Shown piece after piece: positions 33,222-41,609 of a stretch of DNA of 64,000 nucleotides (its first letter is position 1; the number at the start of each line of letters is the position of its first letter). The position numbers and the translations under genes were made by a program. Source of the DNA: Rhodococcus marinonascens NBRC 14363 (GTDB lineage Bacteria; Actinomycetota; Actinomycetes; Mycobacteriales; Mycobacteriaceae); assembly GCF_001894885.1 (NCBI RefSeq), contig NZ_BCXB01000021.1:1-64000 (forward strand). Direction: 5' to 3'. The notes below the pieces were generated by a model. The model had not been told where the DNA came from, did no database searches, and saw only the letters and a list, made by a program, of their open reading frames with translations.

Positions 33222-33836
33222 CGTGCAAGTCTATAGACGGATCATGGGTCCAGCCACCGCGATGTTGTCGCACGAGAAGCAGAGATGGAACTCGTTACCC
33301 ACGAAGGGATCATGACCGATAATATTCTTCCCCACCCATGCAGTACACGTCCGGCCTAGTGCTGTTGGTGATCATCGTGCTCACAGTGCTGCCGCTAGTG
33401 AAGGCGACAACACTCGCATCCTTGAACGTCCCAAATATGTTGCAGATAGACATTTTGTGTCCTGCCCAATAGGCGAATACGACGTTGGTGAGTCGCGTCG
33501 TGGGGTGCCTACGTGCTCTTGGGTGTGTCCCCCTGCACAACTCGACTCGGCAAGTTGTCGGATCCCTCTACCTGCTGCAGATGTTCGAGCTGTGCCCCAC
33601 GCCGCCAGCAGTACGTCCGCAGTACGTCCGCAGTACGTCCGCAGTACGTCCGCAGTACGTCCGCAGTACGTCCGCAGATGATCGTGGCTGTTGCCCTGGT
33701 TGGTGGTTTGAGCGTTCCCCGAAAGAGTAATGCGGCTGCTCAGCTTCCCCTACTGCGACGATGCGCAACGGCGACCGGCGGAAAGCCGACAAAACGGACA
33801 GCTTGCTAGTTCATCCATGCAAAGGGGATTCATTCG
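33222..33836. other. Gene-poor region with a possible gene tail
   Basis: No intact gene. A minus-strand frame (33310-33540) reads like the end of a small protein (AGHKMSICNIFGTFKDASVV then TMITNSTRPDVYCMGGEEYY), so it may be a decayed secreted-protein gene; I do not recognise it. A perfect 11-bp tandem repeat occupies 33611-33676. Confidence 0.4.
33611..33676. repeat. Six perfect 11-bp tandem repeats
   Basis: GTACGTCCGCA repeated six times without change. The unit is not a multiple of three and lies in no convincing gene. Six perfect copies indicate recent expansion. Confidence 0.95.
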
Positions 33837-34122
33837 ATGATGGGTATGACGATCAAGCGTGCACTCGTTGGGGCCTAGCCACGATCGCGATCGGCGTTGG
33901 GTCGGCAACTCCGGCGAGTGCTTCCACGGATTCGTTGGAGTCGATCACAGCACCGGCGCGGCCCGGGTATCGGAATTGCACTCATCACCACGTCCGGATC
34001 AACGATGTCTTCCTGATCGGGACACGAAACGCTTGGTCGCTCAAAGCGCCTTATGTCCCGATGAGATTCGATCACTCGAGCCTTCGGGAGATGCGGGCAA
34101 AATGCGGGCGCGGAACGAGAAG

Positions 34123-34153
34123 AGCCACCTTCCCATCCCTTGGGAAGGTGGCT
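34123..34153 (+). terminator. Strong hairpin left of the oldest integration scar
   Basis: 12-bp perfect stem AGCCACCTTCCC/GGGAAGGTGGCT with a 7-base loop. Degenerate versions of the same hairpin with similar flanks occur at about 35947-35975 and 39845-39871, each just left of a tRNA-Ala-derived scar. It appears to be the int-end terminator of an integrative element. Confidence 0.7.
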
Positions 34154-34168
34154 TCATCTGCAGTTCTT

Positions 34169-34178
34169 CTTGTGGAGC
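34169..34178. repeat. Residual att site (oldest)
   Basis: CTTGTGGAGC, matching only the last bases of tRNA-Ala plus its flank. It is supported mainly by the hairpin and GGGCAAAATGCGGGC flank to its left, which match the other two scars. Confidence 0.5.
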
Positions 34179-34325
34179 GTCTACGTATCTCCGACACTAT
34201 CTACCACTGACGTGGCAGGAGGTGGAGAGATACGTCCTTCACAGCTACCGTCCGCGCCTTGCGACGGCTCGGGTTCGACCGTGTCCCACACCGCCGCTCG
34301 AGGTGCAGGAGTGAACGGGATTTCG

Positions 34326-35630
34326 TCAGCTGCCGGCGAAGCTTCCCCAAGGGGCAGAGGGCTTGGCTGTGATGTCGACGGTGACCTCGAGGACTGCGTC
34401 ATCACCGACCCCGTTGGATGATGCGGTCACCGTGAAGGTATGTGCCCCTCCAGTTGTCGGGGTGCCGGACAGGACACCCTGCTCGCTCAACGTCATCCCG
34501 TCAGGTAGGGCACCGGCGGTCACCCGCACTGTCGGTATCGGGCTGCCGGTCACCGTGAACGCGTAGTTGTACGGCTGGTCGACTACGCCGGCGGGCGGTG
34601 TTCCCGCGAGGGCGACGGGCGTCTCGATCTCCGCCTCGATTGCGACAACCGACACCGATCTAACGTTGGAATTAGCGATGTAGGCGCGGGCACCGTCCGG
34701 AGTGATCGCGATTTCGCGAGGGTCGTCCCCGACTGGGACGATGCCGGCGACCGTGTTGCTGGCGGTGTCGATCACCGACACCGATCCGCTGACCGCATTG
34801 GTGACATAGACCCGGGAGCCGTCCGGAGTCACCGCCAACCCCCGCGCGCCGATCCCGACCGGGACGGTGGCGGTGACAGAGTCGGTCGCGGTGTCGATCA
34901 CCGACACCGTGTCGTCGACGTCACTGACGACGTAGACGCGGGTGCCGTCCGGAGTCACCGCCACCCTCTGTGGGTAGGTCCCGACCGGGACGATAGCCGT
35001 GACGGAGTTGCTGGTGGTGTCGATCACCGACACCGTGTTGTCGACCGCGTTGGTGACGTAGGCGCGGGTCCCGTCCGGAGTCACCGCCACCCCCCGCGCG
35101 CCGATCCCGACCGGATCGGTGGCGGTGACGGCGTTGGTGGCTGTGTCGATCACCGACACCGATGTGCTGTAAGGGTTGGTGACATAGACCCGGGAGCCGT
35201 CCGGGGTTACCGCCAACCCGATCGGCGTGCCGCCGACTGGGATGGTGGCGGAAACGGTATTGGTGGCTGTATCGATGACCGACACCGATTCGCTGTAATA
35301 GTTGGCGACGTAAGCGCGAGTTCCGTTCGGGGTGATCGCCACCCCGATTGGAGTGTTCCCGACCGACATGGTGGCGGTGACAGTGTTGGTGGCCATATCG
35401 ATCACCGACACCGATTTGAAGTCATTGGTCATGTAGGCACGGGCACCGTCCGGAGTGATCGCGATTTCGCGAGGGGTCCATTCGACGCTGAAACTGGCGG
35501 TGACGGTGTCGGCAGCCGCCGAACCGACAACGAAAGTTAGAAGAGTGGCTACGGCGAGAACGGTGCCGCCGAGTGCCGCCGACACCCGCGACAATACGAC
35601 GCGTGAGCGCGGCCGATCAATGGTGGTCAT
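34326..35630 (-). CDS. Secreted YVTN beta-propeller protein with Ig-like C-terminus
   Basis: 434 aa from the ATG at 35630; an upstream extension lacks a signal peptide at its start. Signal peptide about residues 10-41, ending VVGSAAAD. Then eight or so repeats of 42 residues with the pattern VSVIDTATNxVTATxPVG...GxAVTPDGxRxYVTN, forming a YVTN/lactonase-type propeller (about 42-345). A putative-Ig (He_PIG) domain follows, with GTPPAGVVDQPYNYAFTVTG and ALPDGMTLSEQGVLSGTPTT. Such proteins are surface-binding or adhesive; no catalytic residues were recognised. It is the only gene of the middle island segment and the likely cargo. The repeats are highly similar at DNA level. Confidence 0.88.
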   Translation of the reverse strand: MTTIDRPRSRVVLSRVSAALGGTVLAVATLLTFVVGSAAADTVTASFSVEWTPREIAITPDGARAYMTNDFKSVSVIDMATNTVTATMSVGNTPIGVAITPNGTRAYVANYYSESVSVIDTATNTVSATIPVGGTPIGLAVTPDGSRVYVTNPYSTSVSVIDTATNAVTATDPVGIGARGVAVTPDGTRAYVTNAVDNTVSVIDTTSNSVTAIVPVGTYPQRVAVTPDGTRVYVVSDVDDTVSVIDTATDSVTATVPVGIGARGLAVTPDGSRVYVTNAVSGSVSVIDTASNTVAGIVPVGDDPREIAITPDGARAYIANSNVRSVSVVAIEAEIETPVALAGTPPAGVVDQPYNYAFTVTGSPIPTVRVTAGALPDGMTLSEQGVLSGTPTTGGAHTFTVTASSNGVGDDAVLEVTVDITAKPSAPWGSFAGS

Positions 35631-35992
35631 CAAGACGGTGTGCCCTTCCAGGAAGAATCCGCACCCACGGCACGGAGTGGCCACGGGAGGCAGCCACGCC
35701 CAAGAACATACATACCGGACATCCATCCAAAATCGCCCTCTGCCACCTACAGCGGGCGTATTCGTCGCGAGGAACGCGCACGAGACTTGGGTATCGACGT
35801 GTCGTTGCTAGTCGGTACCGTCCCAATCCTCTGGGGTCGGACACTCTCGGTAGAGCGGCGTCGCTCGCGCAACCTCGCACGACCTGGCTCACGATCACCG
35901 GTCACGAGTGGTGACTGTGCCCAAGATGTGCCCGGCAACGAGAAAGAGTCACCTTCTCAAACCCCAGAAAGTGGCACTGACCTGCAAATTAA

Positions 35993-36041
35993 CTTGTGGA
36001 GCCTAGGAGATTCGAAGTCCTGACATCTGCCTTGCAAAGGC
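35993..36041. repeat. Duplicated 3' half of tRNA-Ala (att site)
   Basis: 49 bp identical, except for one base (G for C at 36017), to 39888-39936, which contains the anticodon arm, T arm and acceptor 3' strand of tRNA-Ala. The 5' half of the tRNA is absent, so it is not a gene. It is an attachment-site scar from integration at the tRNA. Confidence 0.9.
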
Positions 36042-36123
36042 GTAGCAGGGTGCAGCTCATGACTACGAAACGCTATTTGACCTCATATTTTGTTCATTCG
36101 GGATAACTGGAAGTAACCGCGAT

Positions 36124-36390
36124 TTGCGGGCAAGTGTGGGCACGAACTCGCTCGACAAGGAACCTACTTCGAATGGTCGATCATGTTGTCGAGTGATAGC
36201 GACCCGTGGGGTCATCTCAGAAGCGGAATCACCACAAGCGCTACCCGTGCTTTCCGCGCACCTCGAGAACCCGGACACCTCACTCCGAGACCACGCCGTC
36301 ACCGGCTTGGCCAGACTGAACACCCCGGAGGCTCGCACGCTGCTCTGGAGAGCACGAGCGAACCGCTCTGGCTTTGCTCGTGAATTCTGA
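36124..36390 (+). pseudogene. HEAT-repeat-like gene fragment
   Basis: A short open frame whose middle part (ESPQALPVLSAHLENPDTSL then RDHAVTGLARLNTPEARTLL) fits one and a half HEAT/PBS-lyase-type helical repeats. No signal for a real start and no continuation on either side, so it is probably a fragment carried in the island. The remainder of 36042-36565 has no recognisable gene. Confidence 0.3.
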
Positions 36391-36565
36391 CGGCGATTGT
36401 TCGCGAATGTGGACGGCGGTTGGCGGGTTTGCCTCGGGCGTGTCGTTCGCGAGTCTCGACGGCGGTATGGAAGGCATCGACGCCCCGATCGGGCGAACGC
36501 GAGTTACTGATAAGCCCTTCGCGTGCGAACGTTGGGTGAAAGAGGTCCCTTGCTGAGCAGATGGA

Positions 36566-36922
36566 TCAGCCGCTTGCTGTGGTGAGTCCGACGTCGCGTC
36601 CCACTCCGTCGATCGAAGCCGCGGTCAAGACTGTGTCCAGAAGTCCCGGGAATCGCTGGTCGAGGTCGTGGCGGCGAAGTACGACGAAACACCGGGTGCC
36701 TTCTTGCCGGGTTCGGGTGATGCCGGCATCGCGCAGCACCCGAAGATGATGGCTCAGTGTGGATTTCGCGACCGGAACCTGCAGTTCTCCCCATCCGCGT
36801 TCGGTGTTGTCGGCCAGCTGCGAGACCACCCCGACCCGGATCGGATCGCTCAACGCGGCAAGCACGGCCGTCAGCCGGATATCGGACACCTCGGGATGTT
36901 GTGGTTCGCGCATACCGAGCAT
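36566..36922 (-). CDS. ArsR-family transcriptional regulator
   Basis: 118 aa from the ATG at 36922 (36913 also possible). Winged helix-turn-helix of the ArsR/SmtB type: LTAVLAALSDPIRVGVVSQL, then KSTLSHHLRVLRDAGITRTR, the recognition helix, and RQEGTRCFVVLRRHDLDQRF in the wing. No cysteine-rich metal site is visible, so the ligand is likely organic or redox rather than a heavy metal. Divergently transcribed from the SDR gene across a 45-bp gap filled by a dyad, so it almost certainly represses that gene and itself. Confidence 0.88.
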   Translation of the reverse strand: MLGMREPQHPEVSDIRLTAVLAALSDPIRVGVVSQLADNTERGWGELQVPVAKSTLSHHLRVLRDAGITRTRQEGTRCFVVLRRHDLDQRFPGLLDTVLTAASIDGVGRDVGLTTASG

Positions 36923-36928
36923 GCTACC

Positions 36929-36957
36929 TTGTTCGATGTTCGACGAACATAAAACAA
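36929..36957. promoter_or_regulatory. Dyad operator between arsR-type gene and SDR gene
   Basis: A 29-bp dyad centred on 36943. Core ATGTTCG-A-CGAACAT is perfect (36936-36950) and the outer arms TTGTT/AACAA also pair, leaving only two mismatched positions per arm. It occupies most of the divergent gap and is the expected binding site of the ArsR-type protein. Confidence 0.75.
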
Positions 36958-36967
36958 GACAGGTGGT

Positions 36968-37723
36968 ATGAGAATGAGTAGCTTCGACGACCAGGTCGTG
37001 ATCGTGACCGGCGCGGGGACGGGGATCGGGCGGGCGACCGCGATCGCGTTCGCCCGGGCCGGCGCCCAGGTGCTCGGTGTCGGCCGCCGTCAGGCGTTGC
37101 TGGCTGACACTGCGGGCGAGCATCCGGCGATCGAGGTGGCAGCACACGACCTGCGCCTTGACGGCGAGGCCGACGCGGTGATCGGCGCGGCCGTCGCGCG
37201 GTGGGGCCGGGTGGATGTGCTGGTCAACAACGCCGGGGCGACGACGTTGATGCCATTGGCCGACGTGACCGCCGAACGTGTCGCCAACCTGTTCGCCCTC
37301 AACGTCGTTGCCCCCAGTGTGCTCGCAGGTGCGGCGTTGCCGCACCTGCGCCAGACCCACGGCAGCATCGTGAATGTGTCGAGCACCTATGGGCATCGCC
37401 CGATTCCCGGCGCCGCGCACTACGCCGCCTCCAAGGCCGCGCTGGAACAACTCACCCGCAGCTGGGCCCTCGAACTGGCCCCCGAGGGCGTGCGGGTCAA
37501 CGCTGTCGCACCCGGCCCGACCGAGAGCGAGGCGCTGGCCGCCACCGGGCTCGCCGACGACATGGTCGCGCAGATCAAACGAGACGAGGCAGAACGTATC
37601 CCGTTGGGGCGCCGCGGTGTCCCGGCCGAGATCGCCGATTGGATACTTCATCTGAGTGATCCGGCCGCGTCCTGGATCACCGGTCAAGTTGTCACCGTCG
37701 ACGGTGGTCTCGAGCTCGTGTAG
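36968..37723 (+). CDS. Short-chain dehydrogenase/reductase
   Basis: 251 aa from the ATG at 36968; an ATG two codons later is better spaced from AGGTGG. Classical SDR: cofactor loop T14-GAGTGIG21, N87-N-A-G90, catalytic Ser139 region in IVNVSST, Tyr152 and Lys156 in HYAASKAALE, and a C-terminal WITGQVVTVDGG. An NAD(P)-dependent oxidoreductase with unknown small-molecule substrate. Likely regulated by the divergent ArsR-type repressor: the pair looks like a self-contained sensing and conversion cassette in the youngest island segment. Confidence 0.92.
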   Translation: MRMSSFDDQVVIVTGAGTGIGRATAIAFARAGAQVLGVGRRQALLADTAGEHPAIEVAAHDLRLDGEADAVIGAAVARWGRVDVLVNNAGATTLMPLADVTAERVANLFALNVVAPSVLAGAALPHLRQTHGSIVNVSSTYGHRPIPGAAHYAASKAALEQLTRSWALELAPEGVRVNAVAPGPTESEALAATGLADDMVAQIKRDEAERIPLGRRGVPAEIADWILHLSDPAASWITGQVVTVDGGLELV

Positions 37724-37759
37724 GACCGAAACGACCCTCGTCTTGGAGTGCGGGGCACA

Positions 37760-37987
37760 TTATCTGACGTCGACGCCGAGCAGCACGCGAATCAGGTCGG
37801 CGCGCAGGTCGGTGGCGGTATAGCTGCCGGTGGGGATGAACTGGTCGAAGCTGATGCGGGCCTGCTGGTCGGTGCTGAGCGAGTCGTGGACGAGTAGCTG
37901 GCTCGAACCCGGCCCATAAATCCTCGTGGCAAGGGTGTCATGTCTCGCTCGTCGTCGGTAGTGACCGCCATGCCCCCTCTCATACAT
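37760..37987 (-). pseudogene. Unidentified gene remnant
   Basis: A 75-codon frame with a protein-like C-terminal half (SQLLVHDSLSTDQQARISFD then TATDLRADLIRVLLGVDVR) and an implausible Arg-rich N-terminus. An alternative frame begins at an ATG (MAVTTDDERDM), so the gene may be frameshifted or truncated. Family not recognised. Confidence 0.25.
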
Positions 37988-38035
37988 CGATCTGTGGGAG
38001 CAGCGCGCATTAGCGCACCGCTCCCACAGATCGAT
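37986..38035 (-). terminator. Large hairpin downstream of GNAT gene
   Basis: 16-bp perfect arms ATCGATCTGTGGGAGC / GCTCCCACAGATCGAT separated by 18 bases, which contain a further GCGC/GCGC pairing. It lies 27 bases beyond the stop of the GNAT gene. Confidence 0.75.
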
Positions 38036-38062
38036 CGTGGTCGTCGTGTCTCGGGCCGGGAG

Positions 38063-38413
38063 TCAGTCATCGGCGACGGCCTTCTCCATGGCGATGCGGG
38101 GCCATTGATCGAGGCCGGCCACCGCTTCCGTTCGCCGGGCAGCGGCGAGGCCGGGTGTCAGATGTGCTTCCGAGACGGTGCACCAGCCCATGCTCATGTA
38201 GAAGGGGCCGTTGAACGGTACGTCACGGAAGGTCGTGAGGGTCATTCGGCGATGACCCTGGGACTGGGCCAAGTCTCCGGCGGCCAGCATCAGTTTGCGA
38301 CCGACTCCCTGACCGCCGTGGGTGGGCTCTACCGTCACTTGCTCGACGTGGAGAGCGTCATCGAGTTCGTCGAGTCGTACGAAGCCGACTACACGATTGG
38401 CAGCCTCAGCCAC
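38063..38413 (-). CDS. GNAT-family acetyltransferase, probably 5'-truncated
   Basis: 116 aa from a GTG. The acetyl-CoA-binding core is present: HVEQVTVEPTHGGQGVGRKL (motif A with the Q/RxxGxG/A loop), then FRDVPFNGPFYMSMGWC. Sensible GNAT sequence continues upstream in frame (ELECFLRAHHRGHVLVAEAA) back to a stop at about 38490 with no usable start codon, so the normal first helix is cut off. It may be inactive. Substrate unknown. Confidence 0.6.
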   Translation of the reverse strand: MAEAANRVVGFVRLDELDDALHVEQVTVEPTHGGQGVGRKLMLAAGDLAQSQGHRRMTLTTFRDVPFNGPFYMSMGWCTVSEAHLTPGLAAARRTEAVAGLDQWPRIAMEKAVADD

Positions 38414-38512
38414 CAGAACGTGACCTCGGTGATGAGCGCGTAGGAAGCACTCGAGTTCCGGGGCCGGTCCATCGGCGACAGCTTTGCTCCACAGGCCTCA
38501 CTCGAAGCTGCG

Positions 38513-38830
38513 GTGGACACAGCGCGAACCGCCAGCGCGGAACATGCGCGGCTCGAGGCCGAGTTCGGCGCTCTGAACTGGGACGACGTCGAACGCAAAG
38601 GACGATCGGGGCGGGTAGGTCTCACGGAAGCGCGGATAGCGAAAGCCCTCGGCGTCGAGGCCGGCACCATCGACAACCTGGCCTGGTACCTCTGGCGACG
38701 ATCGTTCTCCGATGAACGCGACCATCGCGCCGGGCAGGATGCCAATGCTCAGAAGCGTGGACGGATCACACGAGAACTGAAATCGGAACTCTCCATCGCA
38801 CTGGAAAAGGTTTCCCGTGGCGACGATTGA
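38513..38830 (+). CDS. Hypothetical protein upstream of integrase, possibly truncated
   Basis: 105 aa from a GTG with no clear ribosome site. Charged, helical, with a helix-turn-helix-like LTEARIAKALGVEAGTIDNL in the middle, so DNA binding is possible. Coding-like sequence extends upstream in frame to a stop near 38442 without a better start, which suggests a truncated C-terminal fragment. It overlaps the start of the integrase gene by 14 bp, the position often held by a rep or xis gene in actinobacterial integrative elements. Confidence 0.5.
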   Translation: MDTARTASAEHARLEAEFGALNWDDVERKGRSGRVGLTEARIAKALGVEAGTIDNLAWYLWRRSFSDERDHRAGQDANAQKRGRITRELKSELSIALEKVSRGDD

Positions 38831-39759
38831 GCCCTACGAGACAAAAGCCGGCAGGCGCTACCGAGTTCGCTACCGCACGCCCGATCGTAAGTAGACGGAC
38901 AAACGTGGTTTCACCAGCAAGCGGGCAGCGCAGACTTCGCCGCGACGGTAGAAGTCGAGAAGCAGACCGGGTCGAACATTCCTCCATCGGCCGGTCGCGT
39001 CGCGTTCGGTGAGTGTGCAGAGCTGTGGGTACAGGGCAAGGTCAACCTCTCCGAGTCCACACGCTCTCGCTACCGTTCTGCACTCGATGTCCACATCCTT
39101 CCCGCGTTCAAGGCCACCCCCCTGTCCGACATGAACCGCGAGAAGTTGCGACGCTGGGTTACGGCAATGTGCGCGACGACCTCGGCCGCGACGGTGCAGA
39201 AGAACGTCGGCATCTCACGGTCGGCCGGGTTGACTCGCTCGCCAGGGCGGCAGCGTCGCACTCGCTCCTGGTCCACGTCCTCGCGTACTGCGGATTACGG
39301 TTCGGCGAGGCAGCGGCATTGCAGGGCTCCGACGTGGATCTCGAGCGGCAGCGGTTTCGTATTCACAGATCAGTGACGTTGGTCGACAGCAAGCTCGTCT
39401 ACTCCTCCACGAAGTCGAACAAGGGTCGTGACGTACCGATCCCCGGCTTTCTCTGCGAACTACTGGCGAATCATCTCGATGGGCATCCGGCCGATGTGCT
39501 CGCCTTCCCGGAGTCCCGCGGTGGCGCGATGCGCGCAAACAACGTCCGGAGCCGCTGGTGGAACGCGGCCGTGGAGAAGTCGACGGCACCGGAAGGGCTC
39601 ACACCGCACGAGCTGCGTCATACGTGCGCGTCTTTGGCGATCACAGCGGGGGCAAACATCAAGACTCTGCAACGGATGCTCGGCCACTCCTCCGCTGCGC
39701 TGACGCTCGATCGGTACGGGCACCTGCTCGAAGACGATCTCGGAATGGTTGGCGATTAG
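38817..39759 (+). pseudogene. Tyrosine-recombinase integrase, multiply broken
   Basis: GTG at 38817 opens ATIEPYETKAGRRYRVRYR, a typical actinobacterial integrase arm-binding N-terminus. A TAG interrupts at 38892. The frame shifts near 38930 to DFAATVEVEKQTGSNIPPSA and the core-binding domain (FGECAELWVQGKVNLSESTR ... REKLRRWVTAM). It shifts again near 39205, probably with a deletion, into the catalytic domain: YCGLRFGEAAAL (Arg I), HELRHTCASL (His-x-x-Arg), LGHSS and the nucleophile Tyr in LDRYGHLLED. Three lesions make it non-functional. It lies 130 bp from tRNA-Ala, its evident target. Confidence 0.88.
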
Positions 39760-39887
39760 CTCGGCAAGCTGGCTCGCCGTGAGCTTCGATCACTAGGAGT
39801 TGTCGGGTGATGTGGGCAAAATGTGGGCACGGAACGAAAAAAGCCACCTTCCCGTTTCCGAGAAAGTGGCCCTGCCCGACGAACTAT

Positions 39888-39936
39888 CTTGTGGAGCCTA
39901 GGAGATTCGAACTCCTGACATCTGCCTTGCAAAGGC
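39888..39936. repeat. tRNA-Ala-proximal att site
   Basis: The 3' part of the functional tRNA-Ala gene plus four flanking bases, identical in 48 of 49 positions to 35993-36041. The pair bounds the youngest integrated segment. Confidence 0.85.
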
Positions 39937-39964
39937 AGCGCTCTACCAACTGAGCTAAGGCCCC
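39892..39964 (-). tRNA. alaT: tRNA-Ala (anticodon TGC)
   Basis: 73 nt. Acceptor GGGGCCT/AGGCTCC includes the G3:U70 pair that identifies alanine tRNAs. The anticodon arm is CTGCC-TTTGCAA-GGCAG, and the T arm is AGGAGTTCGAATCTCCT. CCA is not encoded. Used as an integration target. Confidence 0.97.
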
Positions 39965-40084
39965 GTTACCTCGTGCCACACCTCGTTGCCGCGAAGCAAC
40001 TTGGTCAGTCCGACTGCCACCAACACTCCGGCTCCCACGATAAGGAGAACCTTCACGCGAATGACCTTTCATCGACACCAGGAG

Positions 40085-40158
40085 TGGGCCTAGGAGGACT
40101 TGAACCTCCGACCTCTTCGTTATCAGCGAAGCGCTCTAACCGCCTGAGCTATAGGCCC
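40085..40158 (-). tRNA. ileT: tRNA-Ile (anticodon GAT)
   Basis: 74 nt, acceptor GGGCCTA/TAGGCCC, anticodon arm CTTCG-CTGATAA-CGAAG. CCA not encoded. It precedes tRNA-Ala by 120 bp on the same strand, the ileT-alaT order of M. tuberculosis. Confidence 0.97.
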
Positions 40159-40289
40159 CTGAAGTACGGAAACTCGCCTGACACAGTTCCCTGAACCGAG
40201 TCGGAAGATTACCCCACCGGACCGGCAAGTACCAAAACCGGTCCGATGAGTGCCTCTCTTCCCAGCTCAGCCCTCGTCGCTCTCTGCGT

Positions 40290-41609
40290 TCAGTCCCGGT
40301 CTGCGAGCGTCACTTCGACGCCCCCAACCAGATCGGAACACAGGTTGTAGATGAACGAACCAATGGTCGCGAGCGCGGTGAACAACACCATGTTTGCCAG
40401 ACCGATGACGGCTGCGTACCCGAAGACCTGTCCGGCCGTCACGAGGCCTTCAGGACTCGAATCGGCGACGATATCGGTGAACGCACTGTTCAGCCGGTCC
40501 CAGACGCCCATGCCCTCCAGGACGAGATACAGCAGGCCCACGGCGACCATCCACACGAAGAACAGCGACACCGAAATGATCGACGAGATTTTCAGCGTCG
40601 ACCACGGATCCAGCTTGCGGATTTGCACCGACGCCCGGAGACCGCCCTCCTCGACACGCTGCGGCGCCACGACGGCCTTCGGCTTATGATCCACCGCGGC
40701 GGCAGCCGGCAGGGGGTGCCTGGCCTCGGACAAGTCAGGCATGTCCTTGGGTAGAGCATCCCGGTTGATGTGCCGGGTGGGTCCGTCGATCGCGGACGCC
40801 TTGGCCTTCGCCGCCTCCCGCTGTGACACTGCGCCGGCCGCGGCGGTTCCTGACACTGCGCCGGCCGCGGCGGTTCCTGACACTGCGCCGGCCGCGGCGG
40901 TAGGGGCCATCGACTCCGAGTTGGGTACCGACTGTCCCTTCGTCGGAGACAGCGGGTACTGCGCAGGTGCCTGCTGGTCCCGCGCAGCCTGGGTGGGGGC
41001 ACCGGGGTTCTGCGCTCGCAACCCCTGCATGCCCCGTTCCTGAATACCCTGGGTGGGGGTGGTTTGTGGGGCCGTCGACTGGGCCTGGGCGGTCTGCGGC
41101 TTCTGGGCGTCTTGACCGCCAGGCGCCTTGTTTGCAGCGGCCCTTCCCTCCGCGGCCGGGTTCGGCTGCCCCTCGGGGCGGGACGCCTGCTTGGCGCCGG
41201 CACCCTGCACGGGCCGCTTCAGATTGGTCTGCGGTTCCCGCTGCATTCCGCGCTGCCACGGCGGAACCTGATTTCCCTGACTGGACTGCGCATCGGTGCG
41301 ATCACCACTTGCCGGCGCCCGGTTACCCGGAGCCTGCTGGGGTGTTCCCTGACGCGAAGGGGTTTGCTGATTCGGGGCGTGACCCTGCGGCGGAGGCGCC
41401 GGGCGATCCGGTCGGGCTTCGGGCGTCGTCGCCGCCGGTCCCGCCGAGGACGCGCCACGACCGGCGGGTGCCTGCGACGCAGACCCTTGTGGCGGACTCG
41501 AACTCGCTGACTCGTCCTCGGGGGCGTTGGAGGCCTGCTGCTCCGATCGCGCCGCACCGGCCGAACCTAGGTTCGGCCGGTCACTGCCTGGCTGGTTGGG
41601 AGTGCTCAC
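40290..41609 (-). CDS. DUF3566 membrane protein (Rv0007-like)
   Basis: 439 aa. A long Pro/Gln/Ala-rich disordered N-terminal region (about 1-320) precedes a C-terminal DUF3566 domain with two transmembrane helices ([20 protein letters not shown] and [20 protein letters not shown]). A 27-bp unit coding for AVSGTAAAG is repeated three times at 40827-40907. GTG start overlapping the gyrA stop by one base, so it is the last gene of the gyrA transcript. In mycobacteria the homologue sits in the same place and associates with the division/elongation machinery by context; the biochemical role is unknown. Confidence 0.9.

Follow-up and report, generated by a model that had tools for sequence, protein, structure and literature searches.

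Probable stacked remains of tyrosine-integrase elements at a tRNA-Ala gene of Rhodococcus marinonascens and the paired arm words of related integrase loci

The repeated modules and the broken integrase beside tRNA-Ala

In this study we analysed a window of 64,000 nucleotides from Rhodococcus marinonascens NBRC 14363 (contig NZ_BCXB01000021.1; C21 of a 4.92-Mb genome), and within it the tRNA-Ile/tRNA-Ala region, where three related modules (M1, M2 and M3) and a broken tyrosine integrase gene lie on one side of tRNA-Ala. The open reading frame (ORF) beside the two tRNA genes is one that we take to be gyrA; this name and that of cwsA were recognised or taken over from a preliminary description of the sequence, with no family search behind them. 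The distance from cwsA to tRNA-Ala was 10.3 kb, which agrees with the gap of about 10 kb given in that description. Among 21 measured relatives in the genus, 18 had distances of 3.2-4.9 kb and the remaining three 10.2, 9.0 and 7.7 kb. When measured from a CM-like gene, the distance to the tRNA was 6.7 kb here and 0.97-1.06 kb, representing an empty site, in 8 of 10 measured relatives; the other two, G014 and G009, had 7.2 and 6.5 kb. Each of the 24 loci compared contained a single tRNA-Ala match at E 0.01. Comparison of the locus in relatives, as proposed in the preliminary description, revealed both empty (about 1 kb) and differently filled sites.

The modules M1 (34062-34134 by BLAST, extended to 34178 by alignment), M2 (35910-36041) and M3 (39803-39936) are homologous and all in direct orientation. 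Over about 115 bp, gaps excluded, the identity was 66% for M1-M2, 76% for M1-M3 and 73% for M2-M3, and none of 300 random window segments (starts within 33900-40000 excluded) matched the observed identity for any module pair. The three-fold recurrence that had been described earlier was borne out by homology beyond the 49-bp tRNA copy, except that the tRNA part of M1 amounts to only about 10 bp. The GGGCAAAATG stretch represents a pair of putative arm-type sites, spaced by one helical turn, at the 3' end of the integrase gene. In all three modules this pair starts exactly 81 bp before the TGGAGC in the 3' end of the tRNA, and in both M1 and M2 the two arm copies are altered alike relative to M3. 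The pair is followed by a hairpin with T-rich sequence after it on the minus strand, which may serve as a terminator facing the tRNA operon. An increasing decay of the modules away from the tRNA had also been claimed. We rejected this gradient, as the identity with M3 is higher for M1 than for M2, and the altered bases of M2 (GGG to CCC in both repeats) make up a different, complete arm type that is intact in other elements. Decay as a clock is therefore not supported.

The integrase gene next to M3 matched the open integrase of G207 across in-frame stops, leaving G207 residues 134-155 unmatched. As the gene is spread over three frames and contains stops and an unmatched stretch, it should be dead. 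Its catalytic half forms a 248-aa ORF at 39013-39759 (PF00589, E 3.6e-24) with homology continuing to 39855, and another piece aligns to residues 1-39 of the G207 integrase at 77%; the latter enzyme carries the N-terminal arm-binding domain PF14657 (E 4.7e-7). The identity block shared by M2 (35993-36041) and M3 (39888-39936) is a duplication of the tRNA 3' half, which corresponds to the anticodon-loop class of integration. Beyond the M2 copy we found two arm sites of the M3 type, at +130/+140 when counted from the TGTGGAGCC with which the core copy starts. The P-arm sites of the tRNA-Ala elements in other genomes lie at +140/+151 (G207), +129/+140 (G341) and +140 (G055, one exact site). Since arm sites of the M3 type are present at the far junction, the last element, B, extends from the M2 core to M3 (36.0-39.9 kb), and the arm word of M2 belongs to something older. 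A close phage or plasmid source for the integrase was considered and rejected, all 1,521 phage and 275 plasmid matches to the integrase half being below 60% identity.

The integrase stub in M2 was 61% identical over 59 aa to a 188-aa integrase ORF of the CCC type in G171. That M2 is the displaced end (integrase stub, arm sites and tRNA half) of an older element, A, with another arm type is well supported. The integrase matches of M1 were weak (16 codons at E 0.018 and 30 codons at E 0.011). A third insertion event at M1 is likely, the tRNA part and any far arm of this element being gone.

Table 1. Positions of the features described in the window.
Feature	Position	Strand	Remarks
M1 arm-type pair	34092..34110	+	TGCGGGCA / TGCGGGCG; T to C in both copies compared with M3
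M1 hairpin	34123..34153	-	13-bp stem, terminator-like
Last tRNA 3'-end trace in M1	34169..34178	+	CTTGTGGAGC; 81 bp from arm pair
Beta-propeller (YNCE/lactonase-type) protein	34326..35726	-	Between M1 and M2; origin unproven
M2 frame matching integrase C-terminal end	35844..36020	+	Match runs through the module
M2 arm-type pair	35916..35934	+	TGTGCCCA / TGTGCCCG; putative P' arm of older element A, another type
M2 hairpin	35950..35973	-	Terminator-like
Copy of tRNA-Ala 3' half	35993..36041	+	49 bp, one mismatch, 3' flank to anticodon loop; far junction of B
P-arm sites of B	36125..36142	+	TGCGGGCA (36125) and TGTGGGCA (36135); M3 type, not M2 type
arsR-family regulator and short-chain dehydrogenase	36566..37723		Regulator about 36566-36925 (-), dehydrogenase 36968-37723 (+)
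GNAT acetyltransferase-like ORF	38063..38413	-	116 aa
Small ORF just before integrase	38513..38830	+	No known family
Broken tyrosine integrase of B	38817..39855	+	Frames 38817-38933, 38909-39214 and 39178-39855; tblastn with open relative
M3 arm-type pair	39811..39829	+	TGTGGGCA-AAA-TGTGGGCA; putative P' arm of B
M3 hairpin	39840..39873	-	Followed by T-rich tail; terminator-like, facing tRNA operon
tRNA-Ala (TGC)	39891..39964	-	Intact (ARAGORN); insertion target, presumably rebuilt by last insertion

Arm words and integrase domains in related loci

The window integrase was searched against 401 genomes of the family, and 133 of them, its own included, had a match at E up to 1e-30. We examined 109 loci from a longer list in the order of the matches, leaving out that of the window, and sought repeats in the stretch that separates the integrase match from the tRNA; loci without an identified tRNA were scanned over 300 bp. 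Of the 109 integrase loci, 101 contained an exact direct repeat of at least 7 bp at offset 11 (shuffle mean 0.8), and every other offset from 7 to 30 gave an exact repeat in 0-4 loci. The 101 arm words comprised 32 different 8-mers. The far ends of the elements could be inspected in 33 of 44 loci (L087 and L142 had no tRNA, and nine had no far end). In 32 of the 33 far ends the element's own word was found in the P arm, paired at 11 bp and matching in at least 12 of 14 letters (0.23% at random), and in 31 of the 33 it outscored the words of all other elements. The exceptions were L082 and L129. For L129, the best far match was the outer element of the stack to which it belongs (in G013, described below), and its own far end, the second match, scored 14/14. 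Thus, an exact pair 11 bp apart, with the same word at both ends, is a simple rule by which attP arms can be located from sequence alone.

Of 85 stretches between arm pair and tRNA, 49 contained ACCTG (expected number 7.3) and 28 contained TGACCTG (expected number 0.6). The distance of ACCTGC/G from the tRNA was 13-18, 25-28 or 36-39 bp, apart from a single case at 6. The ACCTGC / TGACCTGC motif was also noticed in elements with different arm words (e.g., L061, L063 and L069) and in M2 at about 35960-35985. The stretch from arm pair to tRNA folded better than its shuffles (mean z -3.1; 61% of the 85 below -2). The distances from arm to anticodon clustered near 106, 117, 127, 141 and 151 bp, with a best period of about 11.5-11.75 (R 0.65, n = 77; 0.67 at 11.5 for the 65 unique distances). 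This helical phasing is only suggestive, because the period was picked afterwards and relatedness was not removed.

To relate the words to the integrase domains we used partial Mantel tests, which remove shared ancestry only incompletely. They included 90 of the 101 loci with a word; five integrases outside 330-540 aa, three words not starting with TG, and L166, L177 and L201 were dropped (L194, likewise set aside, already fell outside the length range), and the nonredundant and class reruns additionally omitted L199. With the other domains held constant, the word correlated with the N-terminal domain (partial r 0.65, p 0.001) and not significantly with the core-binding (r 0.00) or the catalytic domain (r -0.09). 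The tRNA target, tested in the 80 integrases with a tRNA, correlated with the catalytic (r 0.26) and core-binding domains (r 0.16; both p 0.001), the value for the N-terminal domain being r 0.05 (p 0.028). When analysed by class, the link between word and N-terminal domain was r 0.68 for TGT/TGG words (n = 46) and r 0.32 for TGC words (n = 43). After removal of sequences at least 70% identical it was r 0.53 (p 0.0005, n = 42) overall and r 0.59 within the TGT class (n = 25). Moreover, 40 of the top 60 mutual informations between word and residue fell in the N-terminal domain, which has 63 of the 357 columns. One word was associated with up to eight tRNA targets, and one target with up to four words.

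We infer that the N-terminal domain binds the arm words; the arm sites on both sides of the core and the covariation of word and N-terminal domain were observed at the level of sequence. On balance we lean towards regarding the arm words of actinobacterial integrases as an evolvable and readable address system, which would change with the N-terminal domain and be largely independent of the tRNA target. As the word is common to both element ends and tracks the N-terminal domain, the words left in scars should still report the integrase type. If this is true, the word in a dead scar identifies the type of the lost integrase, and elements that differ in their words could accumulate in one tRNA, none of them acting on the ends of another. 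With the set of about 90 integrases, arm-site recognition can be tested directly, and small mobile elements and dead scars become easier to delimit.

Paired arm sites have been described in mycobacteriophages. In the attP of Cluster K phages, 11-bp arm-type repeat pairs flank the core, and a putative stem-loop terminator lies between the core and P3; close phages differ in their arm words, and two N-terminal residues were suggested to follow the word (PMC3203893). This 2011 paper calls arm-site recognition among related phages ill-defined, and it compares four K1 phages and Pixie, which target tmRNA or tRNA-Lys and have P3/P4 inverted in K1 (PMC3203893). In contrast, our analysis concerns direct arm pairs at about 100 integrase loci, which mostly adjoin tRNAs. 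In Cluster J mycobacteriophages, direct arm pairs (TGCATAC...) flank a tRNA-Leu core with its left end in the anticodon loop, and the authors noted no obvious systematic site difference matching the N-terminal domain differences (PMC3706429). The arm word of L179, TGCATACC, is similar to that of Cluster J, whereas our larger set, unlike that report, reveals a link between the word and the N-terminal domain. A large-scale test of the arm word against the integrase N-terminal domain was not seen in our searches of open-licence papers, and the matches listed first for the arm repeat strings in print contained an 8- or 10-mer, not the longer repeat. Stacking, paired arm sites and attP terminators are already known; the useful part of the present results is the large-scale match between word and domain.

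Proposed order of the insertions and alternative readings

The locus very probably represents a stack of remnants left by related tyrosine-integrase elements after their insertion into one tRNA-Ala gene at the anticodon-loop position. The attP of such an element would contain, in order, the 3' end of the integrase gene, the arm-type pair 11 bp apart, the terminator-like hairpin and a copy of the tRNA 3' half. Upon integration the element's copy would complete the tRNA and supply its terminator, and the resident 3' half would be displaced, together with the adjoining module, to the far junction. Element A, of the CCC arm type, would have entered before B, of the GGG type; M1 is probably the trace of a still earlier element. 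The integrase genes would later have been broken (B) or cut to stubs (A and M1), leaving the remains fixed in place. Successive insertions into one tRNA had been proposed in the preliminary description. For the last two events this view is upheld by the integrase pieces and the P' and P arms of B and by the displaced M2; the event at M1 is only likely.

This anatomy recurs elsewhere. At tRNA-Ser of G013, another member of the genus (contig C25; L225 and L129), an open integrase, a broken integrase and a 62-aa stub each have an arm pair and a tRNA copy, with the words TGTGGCCA, TGTGGGCA/CGTGGGCA and TGTGGCCA/TGTGACCA; this triple stack is a better-preserved example of the arrangement in the window. 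The L084 locus is a two-type stack at tRNA-Leu. To the left of its far junction (L218) a displaced arm pair TGTGCTCA/CGTGCTCA was observed, the element's own word being TGCGGAC. Altogether, five displaced arm pairs were present at 4 of the 33 loci, four differing from the neighbour's word (L071, L084 and both G013 junctions) and one being the same (L127). The tRNA-Ala itself is occupied by elements with open integrase frames in G207 (8.8 kb), G055 (10.3 kb) and G341 (10.2 kb).

The tandem accretion of genomic islands at the 3' ends of tRNA genes is an established term, which also appears in the title of a reference in PMC3218068. In this process elements insert site-specifically into one site time after time, and displaced att (attachment site) copies come to lie between them. 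Such a displaced copy, M2, lies between B and the older remains in the window, where a third element is unproven. The window differs in that B has a broken integrase, only stubs are left of the older ones, and the arm word is not the same in all scars. The locus is a fresh example of a known process and preserves, like a fossil, a clear record of insertions repeated at one tRNA. Candidate phage satellites (PICIs) of Mycobacterium, as presented in PMC10654092, also have tyrosine integrases at tRNA genes. The element at tRNA-Ala of G207 resembles them in carrying an integrase and a capsid-like gene; in contrast, no capsid family was found among the ten window ORFs scanned, and the window thus lacks the combination of integrase and major capsid gene. 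Among the ORFs tested in three other elements (five in L211, seven in L203 and six in L214), there were replication-type, HNH or regulator families and no capsid. Mycobacteriophage Ms6 is reported to integrate into tRNA-Ala genes through a 26-bp core at the T-loop, class II (PMC1762012). Unlike this core, the 49-bp copy in the window is not confined to the T-loop and extends to the anticodon loop (class I).

Several observations weigh against the stacked-element interpretation or parts of it. The two P-arm sites of B are 10 and not 11 bp apart, and one of them has a mismatch. For the far arm of element A, only matches with one mismatch (34441 and 35639) were found near M1, away from the expected distance. 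The far end of the G171 element was looked for and not found. M1 was rejected as a full tRNA copy, since beyond the match of about 10 bp its similarity to the tRNA did not exceed that of shuffles (p 0.42) or of random segments from the window (p 0.35). The region 33500-41000 contained five terminator-like matches, three of which are the module hairpins, compared with 4.0 (sd 1.8) expected from shuffles, and hence no excess. G009 and G024 also have long gaps, and no integrase trace was detected in the about 18 kb examined. In G014 the arsR-family regulator and short-chain dehydrogenase genes adjoin modules different from those in the window, and the arm copies on the tRNA side are 15 bp apart. 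In the family-wide data, L082 failed the far-end test (its word was set by hand, as the pair is 10 bp apart), and within the TGC class the link between word and domain was not significant after redundancy removal (n = 17, r 0.29, p 0.065).

The likeness and direct orientation of the modules could also follow from a single insertion, with slippage or homologous recombination later copying the module to give M1 and M2, and the greater similarity of M1 than of M2 to M3 would fit such a history. We consider it improbable, because both arm repeats of M2 have changed together to a word that is intact in other elements, the M2 stub is 61% identical to the CCC-type integrase ORF of G171, and the far arm of B is of the M3 type. 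Still more remote is the explanation that the repeated unit has nothing to do with integrases and is an intergenic repeat or a tRNA terminator of the host. Although similar GCCACCT hairpins without arm sites follow tRNA-Ala in G024 and G009, the arm pair and the integrase C-terminal codons belong to the unit in the elements of another genus, and the offset-11 pair is present in 101 of 109 integrase loci.

A more serious alternative, though still an unlikely one, accepts M2 and M3 as element remains and regards M1 as a stray copy of the integrase end, arm sites and hairpin that was left by a rearrangement and not by insertion into the tRNA. The tRNA homology of M1 stops at about 10 bp, no far arm lies to its right, and the gene upstream of it, which is common to G014, lacks about 350 bp internally. 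On the other hand, the distance of 81 bp from the M1 arm pair to TGGAGC is like that in M2 and M3, and G014 has a comparable module without tRNA (one arm word and a hairpin) to the left of ArsR.

Neighbouring genes and other observations

The preliminary description assigned the ArsR, short-chain dehydrogenase (SDR) and GNAT genes to an insertion as its cargo. That B brought them is doubtful, because the block occurs in other contexts: it adjoins different modules in G014, and in another genus (G127) no tRNA is present within the 4.2 kb examined. The DNA identity of the ArsR-SDR block was 93% in G014 and 96% in G127, where a GNAT-like block adjoins it, and the block was found in 3 of 251 genomes, including the window's own. 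ArsR-SDR is a travelling block and no proof of what B carried. Judged by cwsA and ppiA identity, G014 is the nearest of the 24 relatives. It has a left module of its own, followed by ArsR-SDR and, at the tRNA, by a CCC-like module whose repeats are spaced at 15 instead of 11; an integrase stub that is 67% identical over 33 aa to that of G171 lies directly at the tRNA. The shared block is no proof of one common insertion in this genome and G014. When window positions 36560-38482 were compared with L243 (another genus), the ArsR-SDR block was 96% and the GNAT block 86% identical, and a strong palindrome at 37986-38035 recurred in L243 beside both blocks.

The small ORF that precedes the integrase gene of B has a 43% identical stretch (76 aa, tblastn) before the integrase in the G055 tRNA-Ala element. 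The beta-propeller gene has a relative of 57% identity elsewhere in the G171 region examined. The GCCACCT-type hairpins of G024 and G009 stand right after tRNA-Ala, at loci with long gaps and neither arm pair nor integrase trace; they could be either older scars or a host terminator that the attP copies resemble. In addition, two tandem repeats were noticed near the modules. A perfect 11-bp repeat, GCAGTACGTCC, in 6.4 copies occupies 33608-33677 between the CM-like gene and M1, and a 27-bp repeat in 2.9 copies lies at 40824-40901 within the minus-strand ORF 40290-41609.

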